A DNA stretch of 64,000 nucleotides. Origin: Crateriforma conspicua (GTDB lineage Bacteria; Planctomycetota; Planctomycetia; Pirellulales; Pirellulaceae). Location of the stretch: positions 434,001-498,000 of the forward strand of contig NZ_CP036319.1 of NCBI RefSeq assembly GCF_007752935.1, read 5' to 3'. Of this stretch, positions 18,291 through 25,564 are shown one piece after another (within the stretch, counting starts at the first letter, position 1; every line of letters starts with the position of its first letter). Made by a program: the position numbers and the translations under genes. The notes beneath the pieces are model-generated. The model did no database searches, was not told the origin of the DNA, and saw nothing but the letters and a program-made list of their open reading frames with translations.

Positions 18291-18755
18291 CTAACGAGAC
18301 GAATGGTGTAAGTATTTTTGGTACGCGGCGACGGCCAGTTCGTCACAGCGTTCGTTTTCGGTGTGGCCGGCGTGGCCTTTGACGTGCCGAAATTTGACGC
18401 GATGCGTCTGCATCAATTCGTCCAAACGCTTCCACAATTCGACGTTCTTGACCGGGACCAGTTTTGAACCGTCTTTGCGTTTCCAGCCGCGACGTTTCCA
18501 TCCGGCCATCCAGCTGTTGATGCCCTGCCCGACATAGGTGCTGTCGGCATGCAGGGTGACGTCGCATGGTTCCTTCAGCAATTCCAAGCCTTTGATGACG
18601 GCCATCAATTCCATCTTGTTGTTGGTCGTCGGGTTGTCCCCGCCACTGCGTTCGACCTGTTTCCCCGTCGACCCGCACCGCAAAATGAACGCCCAACCGC
18701 CCGGTCCAGGATTACCGCTGCAGGCGCCATCGGTATACAAATCAACGGGTTTCAT
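18291..18755 (-). CDS. rnhA: Ribonuclease HI
   Basis: Endonuclease that degrades the RNA strand of RNA/DNA hybrids. The 154-residue protein has all catalytic carboxylates in the usual places: Asp9 ([14 protein letters not shown]), Glu49 (NKMELMA), Asp71 (HADSTYV) and Asp138 (ERCDELA), with the loop histidine region HVKGHAGH before the last one. It contains the basic handle region ([11 protein letters not shown]) of bacterial RNase HI. The start codon overlaps the stop of the upstream sensor kinase (ATGA), so translation is probably coupled to it. A hairpin at 18248-18265 lies just downstream. Confidence 0.95.
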
Positions 18756-20665
18756 AGCGCATCGGTCGGTGTGGGGAAATGCGGTGGTGATCCGCTGTCG
18801 GTTTGCGGCGTACCATTGCTTGCACCGGAGCCGTCGGGGCCGGTGCCGGATTTTTGTTGCGGATCGTTGTCCCTGTTGGACGCAACGTGTGGTTGGGACG
18901 CGGTAAAGATGTCGGCGTTACGAAGTTCCCACGGCAGGGTCACCCAAAACGTGCTGCCACGCCCCAGTTCACTTTCAAAGTCGACTTCACCGCCCAACAG
19001 CTTTGACAATTCGCGGACGATTGATAACCCCAGGCCGGTTCCGGCAAACTCACGGGTCAAGCCTTCGCCGTCCAGCACTTGCTTGCTTTGTCGAAACTTT
19101 TGAAAGATCACCGAATGATCTTCCTCGGCAATGCCGACACCCGTGTCGCGGACGGACAATCGAAATTCATCGCCCAAGTTCTGAACGCCGATCGTGATGA
19201 TGCCGCCTTCGGGCGTGAACTTGATGGCGTTGCTTAGCAAGTTGTTCAGGATCTGTCCCAGCTTGCCGGCGTCCTGGTACGCGGTCGGCAAATCGTCTGG
19301 AATCTGTTGAATGACGGAGATGTTCTTTTCCTCCGATAGCGACCCGATCATGTCGCACTGAGCCGCAACGACACGTTTCAAATCGAATTCGCCGCGTTTG
19401 ACCTCCAGCTTGCCCGCTTCGACTTTGGCCAAGTCCAAGATGTCGTTGATCATTTCCAGCAACAAACGACCGCTTTTTTGAATGTTTGACGCGTATCGCC
19501 GCTGTTTGTCGTTCAGCGAATCGATGTCTTGCAGGACCTCGGAAAACCCGATGATGCTGTTCAGCGGCGTCCGCAGTTCGTGACTCATGTTGGCCAAGAA
19601 GTCACTCTTCAACCGGTTGGCTTCGTACAGTTGCAAGTTCAACTGTGCAAACTGGTCGACACGCGCGTCCAGTTCGCGGTTGACGTCTTCAATCTGGGAC
19701 TGCGTTTCGGTCAAGTGACGCAGCATCCGGTTGAAAGCGTCGGCCAATTCGCGGAATTCGTCTTCGGTGTCGATCAAGGCCCGCTGGCTGGTGTCCCCAT
19801 GGGTGATGGCGTCGCTGACGTCACGCAGATGATACAGAGGTTGCAAAACCAGATAACGCACGATCGCATGCATCACATACAACGTTGCGGCGACGATCAG
19901 CATGGCCATCGCGATGATGATCGCACGGATCCCTTCGGTCGATGCGTTGGTGCCGCTGTTGGGCATCGTGACCTTCATGACCCGAAACGGATACTGGGCG
20001 GCACGGGCGACCGGGTCCTCATTGCTGAGCGATTGATTGCTTTGTCCGATCGGGGCATGACAGGACACGCAGGTTTCATCGGGCCAAATCGGCGTGTACA
20101 GAACGTATTCGTTGTTGTCGACTTCTTCGCCCAAGGCGACCGGGTTGCTGCCGGCCCCGATGCGGGCCATCGCTTCGTCGTCGCCCAGGTCGATCGGATG
20201 AGTGATGTCGACGCCGCTGGAAGCGATACGGTTGGCCAGCCGTCGCCGAAACTCCGCTTCCAAGTTTTCCAATTTCCGCAGCAGTTCGGGCAACTCCGGT
20301 GCAAGCCGTGGTGGCAAATTGCTGAAGCCGGGTGAATCGGAGTGATCCAGACCCAGGATCTGGAACCGCATCTTGTCGCCCAACAATTGCTTATGCAGCT
20401 TGTCCAAGGCGGTCCGTTTCGTTTCCGCCGCCTCGCTGGCGAAATCCTGATCGTTCCAGAACGCCTGTTCGTGCAGTGTTTCTAGCGCGTGCGGCTTGAA
20501 GTCCAACGCGCGTTGCTTGGTCGTGTTCAGCACCAACCCGCGGGCCAACACCTGGACGACGGCGAACGCACCAAACATCAAGACCAACAGGGCCGAACCG
20601 AAGAAGAGCAAGCACTTGCGCTCCAGGCTCATCGACGAGATCAAACTTTGCAGCAATCGGAGCAT
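18752..20665 (-). CDS. Sensor histidine kinase with periplasmic c-type haem site
   Basis: 637-residue hybrid-free sensor kinase. Order of parts: transmembrane helix (about 21-43); a periplasmic region of about 200 residues ending with a CVSCH haem-attachment motif (199-203), as in DUF3365/Tll0287-like sensors; second transmembrane helix (about 246-268); HAMP (about 270-325); coiled linker; HisKA with [10 protein letters not shown] (His362); HATPase_c with [15 protein letters not shown] and GTGLGLSI. The C-terminal 60 residues are Pro/Ser/Gly-rich and disordered. Probably senses a redox or gas signal through haem (inference). No response regulator is adjacent; rnhA follows with a 4-base overlap. 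Confidence 0.9.
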
Positions 20666-21047
20666 TGCGATGGGATCTGTCGGATGGAGACGCGGGCGGG
20701 GAAACGTAGCCGCCGAGTTTGACGAATCAGCGGGACGGCGCGGAGACGAATTTCAGAGGGCTTGGGTTGACCTTACCGCCCGCAAGACCGTTTCAAACCC
20801 CTCTATCTTACCCATCCGGCGCTTCTTGCCGTTGTAAAGGGCCATAATTACAGTGAACCGGCAATATGGCCCTGTTGTTGTCTCCGTTCGCCGTCACGGC
20901 AGCGTCTTTGACCTAAGCTTTTGGGAATAACAGCCGGTCTATCCGTCGATTCACCCCCCAGAATTGCGGCCCCGCACGTCCGAAGGGGACCGTTTTCTGC
21001 CTACTTCCGACCTTTTCGGCATCAATCCGGCGAGGAGCCAGAGAAAG
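20666..21047. other. Divergent intergenic region with short palindrome
   Basis: About 380 bases between the minus-strand sensor kinase and the plus-strand SHD1 protein gene, so it should hold both promoters. The only structure seen is an 8-base perfect inverted repeat gggccata / tatggccc at 20839-20872 with an 18-base spacer, which could be an operator or a weak hairpin. No convincing -35/-10 pair or RNA gene was recognised. Confidence 0.4.
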
Positions 21048-23129
21048 ATGAAACGCACGATCCGTCTCGTGGTCCGATGGACACTCGTCCTTTGTTTGAT
21101 CACGGTCCTTAGTATCAGTCCCGCCACAGCGGGGTGGTTGCTGGAAAACCTGGGGAAGGGGCACGACGCGTGCGGCAGCCGTTCCAAGGCCGCCCCCGCC
21201 GCTTGTGCACCCGCCGCTTGTTGTCCCACGCCGGTTTGTGAACCGGCACCCGCGTGCCAAGTTGCACCCGTTTGCCAGCCCACGCCCGTTTGCCAGCCTG
21301 AGCCGGAACCCTGCTGCGCCGCACCCGCGGATCCCTGTGCGGATGCCGTCGCGGCGCCCGTGATCCAAGACGATTGCTGCGGCGGAACCGTTGTTGAACC
21401 GACCATCATCGAATCGGCACCGATCGTCGAAGGCGAAGTGGTCGCACCGCCAGCCGATGTTGTGGTGCCACCGGCACCGGTCGAAGAGCCAGCCGAAGCG
21501 ATGGAGGCTGAAGAGCCGGCCGCTGACGACGAAGTGGCGACTGAGCCCGAGGCGTCACCTGTCGCGGAAGAATCGTTCCCCGAACCGCCCGCCGAGACTG
21601 AGCCGCCCGCCGAGACTGAGCCGCTTGAAGCCGAAGAACCGGCAACCGAAAGCCCATCGGATGTTCCGGCCGAAGAACCTGTGATGGAAGAACCGGCCAT
21701 CGAAGAGCCCGCAGTTGAGGAACCGGCTGTCGAAGAACCAGCGGTTGAGGAGCCTGCCATCGAGCAACCCGCCGAAACGGAAGCCCCGGCTGCTGAAGAC
21801 GCGATGGACGACCTGTTCGGTGAACCCGCCGAAGCGGAAGCCCCGGCTGCTGAAGAAGCGATGGACGACCTGTTCGGTGAACCCGCCGAAGCGCAAGCCC
21901 CGGCTGCTGAAGAAGCGATGGACGACCTGTTCGGTGAACCCGCCGAAGCGGAAGCCCCGGCTGGTGAAGACGCGATGGACGACCTGTTCGGTGAACCCGC
22001 CGAAGCGGAAGCCCCGGCTGCTGAAGACGCGATGGACGACCTGTTCGGTGAACCTGCCGAAGCGGAAGCCCCGGCTGCTGAAGAAGCGATGGATGACCTG
22101 TTCGGTGAACCTGCCGAAGCGGAAGCCCCGGCTGCTGAAGACGCGATGGACGACCTGTTCGGTGAACCTGCCGAAGCGGAAGCCCCGGCTGCTGAAGACG
22201 CGATGGACGACTTGTTCGGTGAACCCGCCGAAGCGGAAGCCCCGGCTGGTGAAGACGCGATGGACGACCTGTTCGGTGAACCCGCCGAAGCGGAAGCCCC
22301 GGCTGCTGAAGACGCAATGGACGACCTGTTCGGTGAGCCCGCCGAAGCGGAAGCCCCGGCCGCTGATTCGGAACTGGACCAACTGTTTGATACCCCGGAC
22401 ACCGCACCGGCCGCCGAAGAATCGACCGACAGCTTGGGAGATTTGTTCGGTGACGAAGCTCCGGCGATGGAAGAGGCTCCCTCCGGCGAAGAAGGAACCT
22501 TGAACGACCTGTTCGGTGATCCGGCCGAAGAGGCACCGGCACCCGAAGGCGACAGCTTGGAAGACTTGTTCGGTGATCCGCCGGCCACCGAAGAACCGGT
22601 CGATGACTTGGACGATTTGTTCGGCGAACGTGAAGCTTTGGAACGTGCCGAAAAAGAGCGTGAAGGCGTCTTCGATGACCTGTTCGGTGCCCCCGAAGAA
22701 ATGACCCCGACCTCGGAGTCGGAAGAAAACGACGACTTTGAATTCTCGACCGATGACTTGTTCGGTGCGAATCGCAAAGCGGCTCCGGTGCAAGCGGACG
22801 TGGCAACGCCTTCGGCCGATGCCCAAGACGAAGATCGTGTCGCCGAAGTCCAGCCGGCGGAAAGCTCGCTGCAAGTCGTCAGCGCCAAACCGGTCGCCGT
22901 GGATCCGTTGTCCGAAACCCGCGTTCGCGTCTGGGTCGACAACACGGGTAACTTCAGTACCGAAGGTCGCCTGATCCAGATTTCGTCCAGCGACGTTCGT
23001 TTGATGAAAGCCAATGGACGCACCTGCACGGTGCCGCGTGAACGGTTGTGCGAAGCCGACAGTGCCTATGTTGCCGCGATCGAATCCAAGATCCAGCGGT
23101 CACGTCTGGCCATGGTTGCCGACAAGTAA
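21048..23129 (+). CDS. Exported repeat protein with C-terminal SHD1 domain
   Basis: 693 residues. A signal peptide (about 1-27, ending PATAG) follows the ATG, which has cgaggagcc upstream. Then come a Cys/Pro-rich region (about 40-100), an acidic Pro/Glu/Ala region (EEPA repeats), ten near-identical 19-residue repeats built around AMDDLFGEPAEA (about 245-434), and six more degenerate units ending with DLFG. In all there are 16 DLFG motifs. The C-terminus (about 622-690) matches the SHD1 (Sla1 homology 1) domain common in planctomycetes: RVWVDNTGNFSTEGRLI and VPRERL. Probably extracytoplasmic and protein-binding; its partners are unknown. A strong terminator follows. Confidence 0.82.
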   Translation: MKRTIRLVVRWTLVLCLITVLSISPATAGWLLENLGKGHDACGSRSKAAPAACAPAACCPTPVCEPAPACQVAPVCQPTPVCQPEPEPCCAAPADPCADAVAAPVIQDDCCGGTVVEPTIIESAPIVEGEVVAPPADVVVPPAPVEEPAEAMEAEEPAADDEVATEPEASPVAEESFPEPPAETEPPAETEPLEAEEPATESPSDVPAEEPVMEEPAIEEPAVEEPAVEEPAVEEPAIEQPAETEAPAAEDAMDDLFGEPAEAEAPAAEEAMDDLFGEPAEAQAPAAEEAMDDLFGEPAEAEAPAGEDAMDDLFGEPAEAEAPAAEDAMDDLFGEPAEAEAPAAEEAMDDLFGEPAEAEAPAAEDAMDDLFGEPAEAEAPAAEDAMDDLFGEPAEAEAPAGEDAMDDLFGEPAEAEAPAAEDAMDDLFGEPAEAEAPAADSELDQLFDTPDTAPAAEESTDSLGDLFGDEAPAMEEAPSGEEGTLNDLFGDPAEEAPAPEGDSLEDLFGDPPATEEPVDDLDDLFGEREALERAEKEREGVFDDLFGAPEEMTPTSESEENDDFEFSTDDLFGANRKAAPVQADVATPSADAQDEDRVAEVQPAESSLQVVSAKPVAVDPLSETRVRVWVDNTGNFSTEGRLIQISSSDVRLMKANGRTCTVPRERLCEADSAYVAAIESKIQRSRLAMVADK
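21780..22349 (+). repeat. Ten tandem 57-bp repeats
   Basis: Ten consecutive 57-base units, each encoding the 19-residue unit starting EAPAAED/E and containing AMDDLFGEPAEA. Differences between units are single bases or the Asp/Glu and Ala/Gly swaps at fixed positions (for example GAAGAC versus GAAGAA, gctgct versus ggtggt-type changes). Near-identity at the DNA level points to recent expansion or gene-conversion homogenisation; copy number is likely to vary between strains. Flanking copies on the 3' side are degenerate. Confidence 0.95.
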
Positions 23130-23250: not shown

Positions 23251-23304
23251 GTGCTCGCGGCGTCACGCATCGCCCCGGGAATTGACCCCGCATGAGTGAA
23301 GACC

Positions 23305-23829
23305 ATGGATGAAGACGCTGACTTGCCGATTCGGCTGAGCCATCACGATCCGCGTTGGCGTCAGGAATTTCAACAAATTCGCAGTGGCGTTTTGCAGTGT
23401 GGTCAGGGAATGATCACTCAGGTCGAACACATCGGCGGCACTGCGTTACCGGGACGGATCAGCCAGCCGATCATCGATGTGCTTGCCGGGGTTCACGACG
23501 CGGACCAGATGGACGAAGCGGCGTTGTCGATCGAAGGGCTGTATTTCCGGCCTCTGCCACCGCCCCACTGGGATTCGTCCGCGGTGCGGTTGATCAAGCC
23601 TCGCGGGGGGCCGGTGACGCACCAATTGTTCCTGATGCCCATCGGCACGCCGGCCTGGCATGCGGCGCTTGCGATTCGCGATCATTTACGCGCCGATACC
23701 GAGGCAAGCCTTCGCTTCGAAGACGCCAAAGTCGGCATTTGGAAGCGGACCGGCGGCGATCCGGAGGACTATCCGCGTGCTAAAGACGGCGTGTTCACCC
23801 ATTTGATGGAACAATTGAATTTGCCGTGA
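23305..23829 (+). CDS. GrpB family protein (UPF0157)
   Basis: About 174 residues. Matches the GrpB/UPF0157 family, which has a nucleotidyltransferase-like fold: an N-terminal HHDPRWRQEF segment, VEHIGGTALPGRISQPIIDVL (family signature with GGTA and the Pro-Ile-Ile-Asp strand), and a C-terminal WKRTGG / PRAKDGVFTHLM segment. The true catalytic role is unknown; some members are fused to dephospho-CoA kinase. An in-frame GTG at 23296 is the alternative start. It follows the SHD1 gene across a terminator, so it is probably transcribed on its own. Confidence 0.88.
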   Translation: MDEDADLPIRLSHHDPRWRQEFQQIRSGVLQCGQGMITQVEHIGGTALPGRISQPIIDVLAGVHDADQMDEAALSIEGLYFRPLPPPHWDSSAVRLIKPRGGPVTHQLFLMPIGTPAWHAALAIRDHLRADTEASLRFEDAKVGIWKRTGGDPEDYPRAKDGVFTHLMEQLNLP

Positions 23830-23905: not shown

Positions 23906-25564
23906 ATGCCGACCGTTTCCCACTTGCCAATCAATCACATGGCACGCAGCCGCCTTGGGCCCCTGGCCATTGAAACGAAGCTCGGGGACCACCCATCGCG
24001 CAGTTCCGTTTGGCGGGCCATTCATCTGAAACAGAAGGCCGCCGTTGCCGTCAAAGTCTTCAATGTTCCCTTCGGCGGAACGCCAGAGACCCGCGCCGAA
24101 TTCAAGTCGGAATGGGACCAGCTGAAAACGATCCGGCATCCCGGCATTGCCAAGTGCTATGGCGGCGGATTCGAGCAAGCCGATGCGTATTTGGCTTACG
24201 AGTTGATCGAAGGCGAAACGTTGGATTCGATGCTGATCCGTCGGGACCGCCTGCCTTGGGAAACGGTTCTGGACCTGGCCGAAGGCATCGTCGACGCGCT
24301 GGAGTACTTGCACGAACGGCAGATGTATCACGGTCGGTTGCAGCCGGACAAAGTGATCGTTGCGGGGCTAAGTCCGATCTTGGTCGACATGCGACTTGCC
24401 CGTGGCGACGGACCCTTTCAGACCGGTCGACCGCTGGAGACGCATGAGTTGGCGTACCGCGCCCCGGAAGCCGTGGATGACGACGCCGCGACCGGTGTGA
24501 AGTCGGATTTGTTCGCGTTGGGCGTGATCATGTATCGATGCCTGACCGGCCGTTTGCCGTATGACGCCGATACGCCCGCCGAGATGCGTGATGCGGTACG
24601 TCATGCCGTGCCGACATCCCCGGCAACCGTGGTGATGGACTTGCCGGTTTGGATGGACAAATTGGTCGGTCAGTTGATCCACCCCGAATCGGCGTCGCGT
24701 CCCGCGGGCGCGGCCGCGGTCAAATTGGGGTTGGCCGAGGTGCGAAAGCGATCGATGTCTCGGGCCGGTGTCGCCGAGCAGGTTTCTTCCGGTTTCAGTC
24801 CCGTACAGATCGGTGACCAGAGCCAGCGTGACGAAGCCCGGGTTTTGTTGGGACAACAGATCGTTGACTTGGACGACGATCAGCCCGTTGATGATGCGTC
24901 ATGGTACGACCAGTGGTGGGCGTTGCTGCTTGGCCTTGCCGCGATCATTGGATTGTTGGCGTATTTCATGTGGCCGCTTGGCGAAGACAAGATGCGTCAA
25001 CGGGCCGAAGACCTGTTGGCCGAGGGGACGCGCGGCGCCAAGATCCAAGCCAAAATCAGTTATCTACAGCCGATGCTGAACAAGTTCCCCAACGGTGAAC
25101 ACGCGACTTGGGCTGCGGACCAAATTGAACAAGTGGAGATGGTCGAAGCGGAGCATTTTCTGTCGGTCAAGATGAAACGCAACTTGCCGCTGCGTGGTGA
25201 AGGCGAACGTTTGTACGCCGAAGCACTGCAGTACCAGCGGTTCGGCGACGATGCATCGGCGCTTGCCAAATACCGCAGCATCGTCACGCTGTTGGCCGAT
25301 CAAGATCAGTACCGCGCGTTCGTGAACCTGGCGCGGCGTCAGATCGCCCAGATCGAATCGACCGGCCAGACCGGTGGCGAAGCGGCGGGAATCATCATCG
25401 CAAAGATGAAGGAAGCCGATTCGGCATACCGTAGCGGAAACGTGATCGCGGCCAGGAAGGTCTGGTATAGCATCATTGACCTGTACGCCGACAATGCCGC
25501 CGTCGCGCCCCTGGTTCAACAAGCCCAAGACCGCATCGAGGCGGTGGCGTCCGGGGCAAATTGA
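23906..25564 (+). CDS. Membrane-anchored Hanks-type pseudokinase
   Basis: 552 residues: a protein-kinase fold (about 15-280), a transmembrane helix (about 338-356) and an extracytoplasmic tail with helical, repeat-like segments (about 360-550). The fold is clear (AVKVFN with Lys50, VKSDLFALGVIMYRCLTGRLPY for subdomains IX-X), but catalytic elements are lost. The glycine loop is absent (GDHPSRSS), the HRDLKPxN loop reads HGRLQPDK (142-149, catalytic Asp to Arg), and DFG reads DMR (161-163). So it is probably catalytically dead and signals by binding. The 103-residue membrane protein downstream may be in the same operon. Confidence 0.85.
   Translation: MPTVSHLPINHMARSRLGPLAIETKLGDHPSRSSVWRAIHLKQKAAVAVKVFNVPFGGTPETRAEFKSEWDQLKTIRHPGIAKCYGGGFEQADAYLAYELIEGETLDSMLIRRDRLPWETVLDLAEGIVDALEYLHERQMYHGRLQPDKVIVAGLSPILVDMRLARGDGPFQTGRPLETHELAYRAPEAVDDDAATGVKSDLFALGVIMYRCLTGRLPYDADTPAEMRDAVRHAVPTSPATVVMDLPVWMDKLVGQLIHPESASRPAGAAAVKLGLAEVRKRSMSRAGVAEQVSSGFSPVQIGDQSQRDEARVLLGQQIVDLDDDQPVDDASWYDQWWALLLGLAAIIGLLAYFMWPLGEDKMRQRAEDLLAEGTRGAKIQAKISYLQPMLNKFPNGEHATWAADQIEQVEMVEAEHFLSVKMKRNLPLRGEGERLYAEALQYQRFGDDASALAKYRSIVTLLADQDQYRAFVNLARRQIAQIESTGQTGGEAAGIIIAKMKEADSAYRSGNVIAARKVWYSIIDLYADNAAVAPLVQQAQDRIEAVASGAN

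Follow-up and report, generated by a model that had tools for sequence, protein, structure and literature searches.

SHD1 is already known as a peptide receptor in yeast, where the domain of Sla1 binds NPFx(1,2)D and, less well, DPFxD, NPF and DPF (PMC7889276, accessible part); the ligand of the fungal domain has also been given as NPF (PMC12808100, accessible part). Extracellular SHD1 in bacteria has been mentioned as well, together with extracellular chromo-like domains, in the accessible part of PMC5906684. Partial likenesses to the locus described here are also offered by the FG-nucleoporins (PF13634), in which FG is repeated along a low-complexity chain, and by the YTV proteins of Planctomycetales, which are cysteine-rich cell-wall proteins (PMC8567305, accessible part). 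Among the matches listed by literature searches covering few subscription journals, none describes a DLFG/SHD1 family or a bacterial SHD1–motif system with a 16-copy array.

The locus lies in the window, the whole stretch of 64,000 nucleotides of Crateriforma conspicua that was analysed (Table 1). Its gene runs from an ATG at 21048 to a stop codon at 23127-23129 and encodes 693 amino acids, arranged as a putative signal peptide, a Cys/Pro-rich part, a Cys-free acidic motif region and an SHD1 domain. An SHD1 protein with sixteen DLFG motifs had been proposed from the sequence alone, and this description is borne out by the ORF at 21048-23129, by the match to PF03983 at its C-terminus and by the motif count, which comes to exactly 16 DLFG, with a degenerate QLFD besides. 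The protein is acidic in composition (119 Glu and 67 Asp), with spacers rich in E, A, P and D, and a Pfam scan of it returns SHD1 and Nucleoporin_FG only.

Table 1. Features of the DLFG/SHD1 gene and its neighbours (positions within the window)
Feature	Positions	Strand	Basis
Sensor histidine kinase gene, CVSCH in N-terminal half of product; divergent, conserved neighbour	18752..20665	-	profile and locus comparison
Gene of the 693-aa SHD1 protein with 16 DLFG	21048..23129	+	ORF and translation
Putative signal peptide, about residues 1-28, ending SPATA	21048..21131	+	by inspection
Cys/Pro-rich segment, residues 42-111, 13 Cys	21171..21380	+	sequence and family Cys counts
57-bp tandem array, 10.5 copies; ten 19-aa units with AMDDLFGEPAEA	21766..22366	+	repeat analysis
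Divergent motif part: QLFD and six DLFG in non-repetitive acidic spacers	22367..22766	+	sequence
SHD1 domain (PF03983), residues 624-679	22917..23084	+	profile, PDB sequence and fold matches
GrpB-family gene, downstream in 15 of 39 loci	23296..23829	+	profile and locus comparison
Gene of a Ser/Thr protein kinase, co-directional and downstream in 7 of 39 loci	23906..25564	+	profile and locus comparison

Among the closest described counterparts of this protein is Sla1 (PDB 2HBP), with which it shares an SHD1 that is the same domain by sequence and by fold, a KxNG loop and a motif class, [ND][P/L/I]F, near NPF/DPF. It differs from Sla1 in being bacterial and probably exported, and in carrying motifs that are mostly DLFG, numerous and located on the same chain as SHD1. 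Pfam finds in it neither SH3 nor any other Sla1 domain, and the signal peptide recognized by inspection sets it apart from the cytoplasmic Sla1-type endocytic adaptor. Most relatives have similar hydrophobic N-termini as judged by eye, the chosen start being wrong in some rows. A median of 13 cysteines precedes the first motif in the family (at least four in 52 of 54 sequences, two or three in the other two), as counted on stop-to-stop frames that include leader residues, and none of the 54 sequences has a cysteine between the first motif and SHD1. The likeness to YTV proteins is confined to a cysteine-rich planctomycete composition; searches of Pfam and NCBIfam, where the presence of a YTV model is unconfirmed, give no YTV match in the protein.

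The PF03983 profile scores 45.7 bits against a cut-off of 23.7 (E 6e-12), and Sla1 SHD1 is the sole PDB sequence match of the domain up to E 1, at E 1e-5. In structural searches of the PDB with an AlphaFold model, the best match is again 2HBP (Foldseek E 1.5e-4, SH3-like fold), which aligns over 59 residues at 2.1 Å with Z 8.4, the runner-up reaching Z 5.7. VIA-align also returned many Hfq chains at Z near 5, a likeness set aside as that of a common small barrel. The loop of the DLFG-family rows is KxNG as in Sla1, and the lysine of KANG is kept in 59 of 59 rows, a few loci being counted twice; it corresponds to K525, which we take to be required for NPFxD binding in Sla1.

In the window protein, [DNE][LIP]F occurs 16 times in the linker against about 1.2 expected by shuffling. 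When 53 relatives are included, 622 of 733 linker Phe lie within [DNE][LIP]F, against 43.9 by shuffling, with at least three in each sequence. Around these 733 Phe, position -2 is D in 618, position +1 is G in 569, and position -1 is L in 506, P in 107 and I in 51; the consensus is D-D-[L>P>I]-F-G-[D/A/E]-P, so that DLFG, DPFG and DIFG interchange. Two relatives (L051 and L075) carry DIFG throughout, and a third (L056) mixes DPFG with DLFD. The sample comprises 55 usable loci, the window copy included, yielding 54 ORFs (L033 holds a 5′ part only and L073 is a 100-base placeholder); alignment A1 covers 50 of the 54 ORFs, and alignment A2 covers 37 of 38, one duplicate being left out and one row beginning with M where the frame reads V. 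Most relatives were chosen by a query containing the repeats, which biases the sample toward motif-bearing ones; some chosen through SHD1 alone (L051, L058, L061, L070, L071 and L075) have motifs too.

A search with the window protein at E 1e-3 finds matches in 170 of the 199 genomes of the taxonomic family, many through SHD1 alone, and a profile of the last two motifs plus SHD1 matches 92 of 118 genomes of the order, partly through SHD1 alone; profile relatives, named here irrespective of their motif counts, include Rhodopirellula, Stieleria, Rubripirellula, Roseimaritima and Neorhodopirellula. Upstream of SHD1, each of the 29 order-level loci, 27 of them from other families, has one or more [DNE][LIPV]F (181 of 311 Phe, a count that has no shuffle baseline), and three loci have one motif only. 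Variants in the loci from other families include NPFA, DPFA and NLFD. Confinement to one strain without conserved neighbours, or free drift of the repeats, would have spoken against the docking peptides proposed in the sequence-only reading; instead, the motif occurs in 53 relatives and persists while the spacers drift, and a kinase gene accompanies many of the loci (below). Multivalent docking outside the cytoplasm is thus favoured by the conservation of the motif core and not of the spacers, the protein being probably exported and its motifs presumably bound by a receptor.

The nature of that receptor is suggested by other planctomycete SHD1 proteins. These were gathered nearly all from the class as 137 ORFs, clustered to 100 and reduced to 95 non-redundant proteins by removal of five DLFG-like ones. 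In the 35 residues that follow the end of the SHD1 profile, the top tripeptide is NPF, found in 22 of the 95 proteins against 0.23 expected, and [ND]PF reaches a density of 10.4 per 1000 aa, against 0.30 elsewhere in the same proteins. In the same 35-residue window of the 95 proteins, the controls FP[ND], [ND]PY, [ND]PL and [ND]PW are all at zero; the near-controls [ND]AF and [KR]PF occur twice and once. Some proteins terminate in NPFE, NPFEP, NPFAQ or NPFRVE, and others hold two or three motifs. Of the 43 architecture families only two supply the NPF-bearing proteins, with 19 of 30 members in one and 5 of 7 in the other, so the 22 are not independent, and this narrow distribution counts against SHD1 as the receptor. 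Such proteins (propeller-like ones and those with a C-terminal SHD1 followed by NPFE, for example) resemble the DLFG protein in uniting SHD1 with [ND]PF in one chain, and differ from it in having one to three motifs right after SHD1 and no long preceding array. The genome of Crateriforma itself encodes five SHD1 proteins, the DLFG protein and four paralogues; NPFAGG follows SHD1 in one paralogue and DIFAGG in another, and the lack of either after SHD1 in the other two is a further point against. The sequence-only reading had compared the repeats with [DE]LF-type motifs that bind clathrin adaptors, a comparison to which no result of this analysis lends support. Sla1 SHD1 itself, as a receptor for NPFxD, NPF and DPF, is the closer and more specific parallel; NPF or DPF stands beside SHD1 in some planctomycete SHD1 proteins.

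It is nearly an even call that the DLFG repeats are ligands of exported SHD1 domains and that the protein is an exported multivalent scaffold. The observations behind this reading are the anatomy of the protein, the conservation of its motif, the homology of its domain to that of Sla1, the enrichment of NPF beside some SHD1 domains and the motif clusters of a VWA protein. The protein would be exported and then anchored or cross-linked in the envelope by its Cys-rich N-terminal segment. Sixteen weak short linear ligands, of a class [DN][LIPV]F[G/A/S] that would also include NPF and DPF, would be displayed on a flexible acidic linker. Their receptor would be SHD1, either the protein's own domain acting in trans (self-assembly) and/or the domains of the four other SHD1 proteins of the genome, and the SHD1 at the C-terminus of the scaffold would bind exported proteins that carry the motif, for example the VWA protein. 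Many weak SHD1–motif contacts would add up to a reversible network in which the single SHD1 makes the scaffold a node. A role in uptake or in shaping the envelope, as suggested from the sequence alone, is speculation.

Candidate partners in trans can be sought through the motif. A DNA pattern that covers DDLFG, and DDFFG as well, hits the genome at 56 sites, 13 of them in the DLFG gene; the reversed pattern has two. Flanks were examined at 40 of the 43 sites outside this gene, ORFs below 60 aa being ignored, and the other three sites encode DDFFG; within this coverage, exact DDLFG clusters in three proteins, namely the DLFG/SHD1 protein and, with two copies in one frame, a VWA protein and a zinc-ribbon protein. 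The VWA protein (L348, 198-3101) has a signal-peptide-like N-terminus, three DLFG and a Gly/Met-rich stretch; it is probably exported, Pfam finds no SHD1 in it, and it is present in 39 of 40 family genomes searched. Linkers could be delimited in 25 of 30 VWA proteins, the other five ORFs being without motif; 11 of the 25 contain [DN][LIVP]F[GAS], with 40 motifs against 1.11 expected, of the kinds DLFG, DIFG, DVFG, DPFG, DPFA, NPFG and NPFA. One linker (L369) mixes DLFG, NPFG and DPFS, and such mixing gives the strongest hint that DLFG and NPF may belong to a single motif class. The zinc-ribbon protein (L344, 908-2776) holds PLFGD and two DDLFGD without an evident signal peptide, an occurrence that weighs against the scaffold reading; it was rejected as a partner, DLFG being found in just 3 of 18 members of its family, its own and that of the congener included. 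A small Cys-rich, perhaps exported protein (L335, 1212-1829, minus strand) has a single DDLFGE.

The search for DLFG arrays together with partner families, proposed in the sequence-only reading, finds the motifs in relatives; for the partner, the VWA motif accompanies the scaffold in 10 of 21 genomes and occurs in 1 of 9 without it (p 0.065 one-sided, 0.10 two-sided, kinship uncorrected), a co-occurrence that is not significant, is not claimed and falls on the negative side for SHD1 as the receptor. Scaffold presence was here called by profile score at a cut-off of 1e-20, chosen after the list was seen, and arrays were not individually checked. More tentatively, these proteins could share an extracytoplasmic code in which SHD1 reads [DN][P/L/I]F and the DLFG protein is a high-valency hub joining exported SHD1 and VWA proteins into an envelope-associated network. 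To our knowledge, the reading of such peptides by SHD1 is otherwise confined to the fungal Sla1 endocytic pathway, and we know of no [DN]LF peptide described as an SHD1 ligand. If SHD1 does read NPF-type peptides in bacteria, a receptor–ligand pair of fungal endocytosis works outside the planctomycete cytoplasm, in a group whose envelope and uptake biology is debated, and the code would give a handle on the partners of many unannotated SHD1, VWA and DLFG proteins.

The motifs could instead dock a different extracytoplasmic receptor, the SHD1 of the same protein having another ligand. This reading is unlikely, yet it draws on several features: Leu or Ile at position -1 and Gly at +1 are unlike yeast NPFxD, and in most SHD1 domains adjacent to NPF a D takes the place of the N found in KxNG of the DLFG family and Sla1, the SHD1 rows outside the family being mostly [KR]xDG. 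The KANG lysine is also kept less often, in 11 of 24 NPF-bearing SHD1 domains against 45 of 73 motif-free ones. Since it is not commoner beside NPF, it was discarded as a marker of NPF binding among SHD1 domains, a result that also tells against SHD1 as the receptor. Finally, AlphaFold models in cis of the window C-terminus and of an NPF-bearing SHD1, the only models built, show a confident SHD1 and an undocked motif, a weak argument in the same direction, the motif-holding blocks having pLDDT of about 50-65 in both. Against a separate receptor stand the replacement of DLFG by DPFG, DPFA or NPFA in relatives, partly within one array or linker, and the adjacency of NPF to SHD1 in two other architectures.

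Less probable still is a role of the repeats as cohesive stickers, by which an acidic disordered chain with spaced Phe would form an extracytoplasmic gel or condensate, like FG-nucleoporins, with no folded receptor. The array is regular in spacing and high in copy number, and the Nucleoporin_FG profile of Pfam scores 46.4 bits against a cut-off of 32.2. However, Asp at -2 and Gly at +1 are kept in the proportions given above, beyond what stickers need. The spacers of FG-nucleoporins are uncharged and rich in S/T/N/Q/G; the DLFG protein, unlike the GLFG nucleoporins, has D-x-F-G in acidic spacers and, beyond that, a signal peptide and an SHD1. Identity with a nucleoporin was rejected, the Pfam match being probably compositional. 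As this match exceeds the cut-off, automatic annotation could mislabel the DLFG/SHD1 family, and Pfam-based labels of such proteins as nucleoporin-like call for caution.

It is quite improbable that NPF or DLFG acts as a lid, folding onto the SHD1 of its own chain in autoinhibition and serving no partner. The short distance in the NPF group, where the motif starts 0-18 residues after the end of the SHD1 profile and within 0-6 in 21 of 24, would suit such an arrangement. The variable linker length, the 16 copies for a single SHD1 in the 693-aa protein, the predicted disorder of the tail (pLDDT about 50) and the motif clusters of a VWA protein that has no SHD1 by Pfam are all at odds with it, and ligands recognized by exported SHD1 domains remain the preferred reading.

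The 57-bp array holds ten DLFG with 96% matches between units, and the remaining six lie in non-repetitive spacers; the ten thus go back to the expansion of a single unit and do not count as ten separate events. Comparison with one congener (95% identity) gives 5 synonymous and 0 non-synonymous changes in 85 codons of five-residue motifs, 31 and 13 in 252 spacer codons and 11 and 2 in 80 SHD1 codons, the position-by-position comparison being approximate because both species have ten array units, which differ mainly by E/D. To judge by these units, the array looks homogenised within each species. A functionless array spread by replication slippage is scarcely credible and already disfavoured: 10 of 16 copies are indeed near-identical units, but the spacers around the other six are divergent, the motif persists throughout the order while spacers drift, and no motif codon has changed non-synonymously.

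The surroundings of the gene are conserved in part. At a threshold of E below 1e-60, 27 of 39 loci have the sensor histidine kinase; its divergent orientation is clear in 24, and in the other three it lies on the opposite strand, the stop-to-stop frames overlapping. CxxCH occurs in 14 of these 27 kinases. No such kinase was found in 12 of the 39 loci, two of which have only about 300 bases upstream, and this absence is counted against the SHD1-ligand reading. The 220 bases 5′ of the ATG (20828-21047) are identical to those of the congener at 219 positions, though the gene has many synonymous changes, and the kinase/scaffold intergenic region appears to be under strong constraint. An in-frame DLFG-coding stretch at about 21021-21032, just 5′ of the ATG, is shared with the congener within this near-identical upstream region and is probably 5′ leader DNA. 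Upstream of relatives such as L040, L050 and L038, a promoter-like pair consists of CTTG, about 17-20 bases and [CT]TAGCAT, placed roughly 95-210 bases 5′ of the start. Of 54 upstream sequences, 40 contain the word [CT]TA[GA][CG]AT; with the stretch taken in reverse order the number falls to 11.
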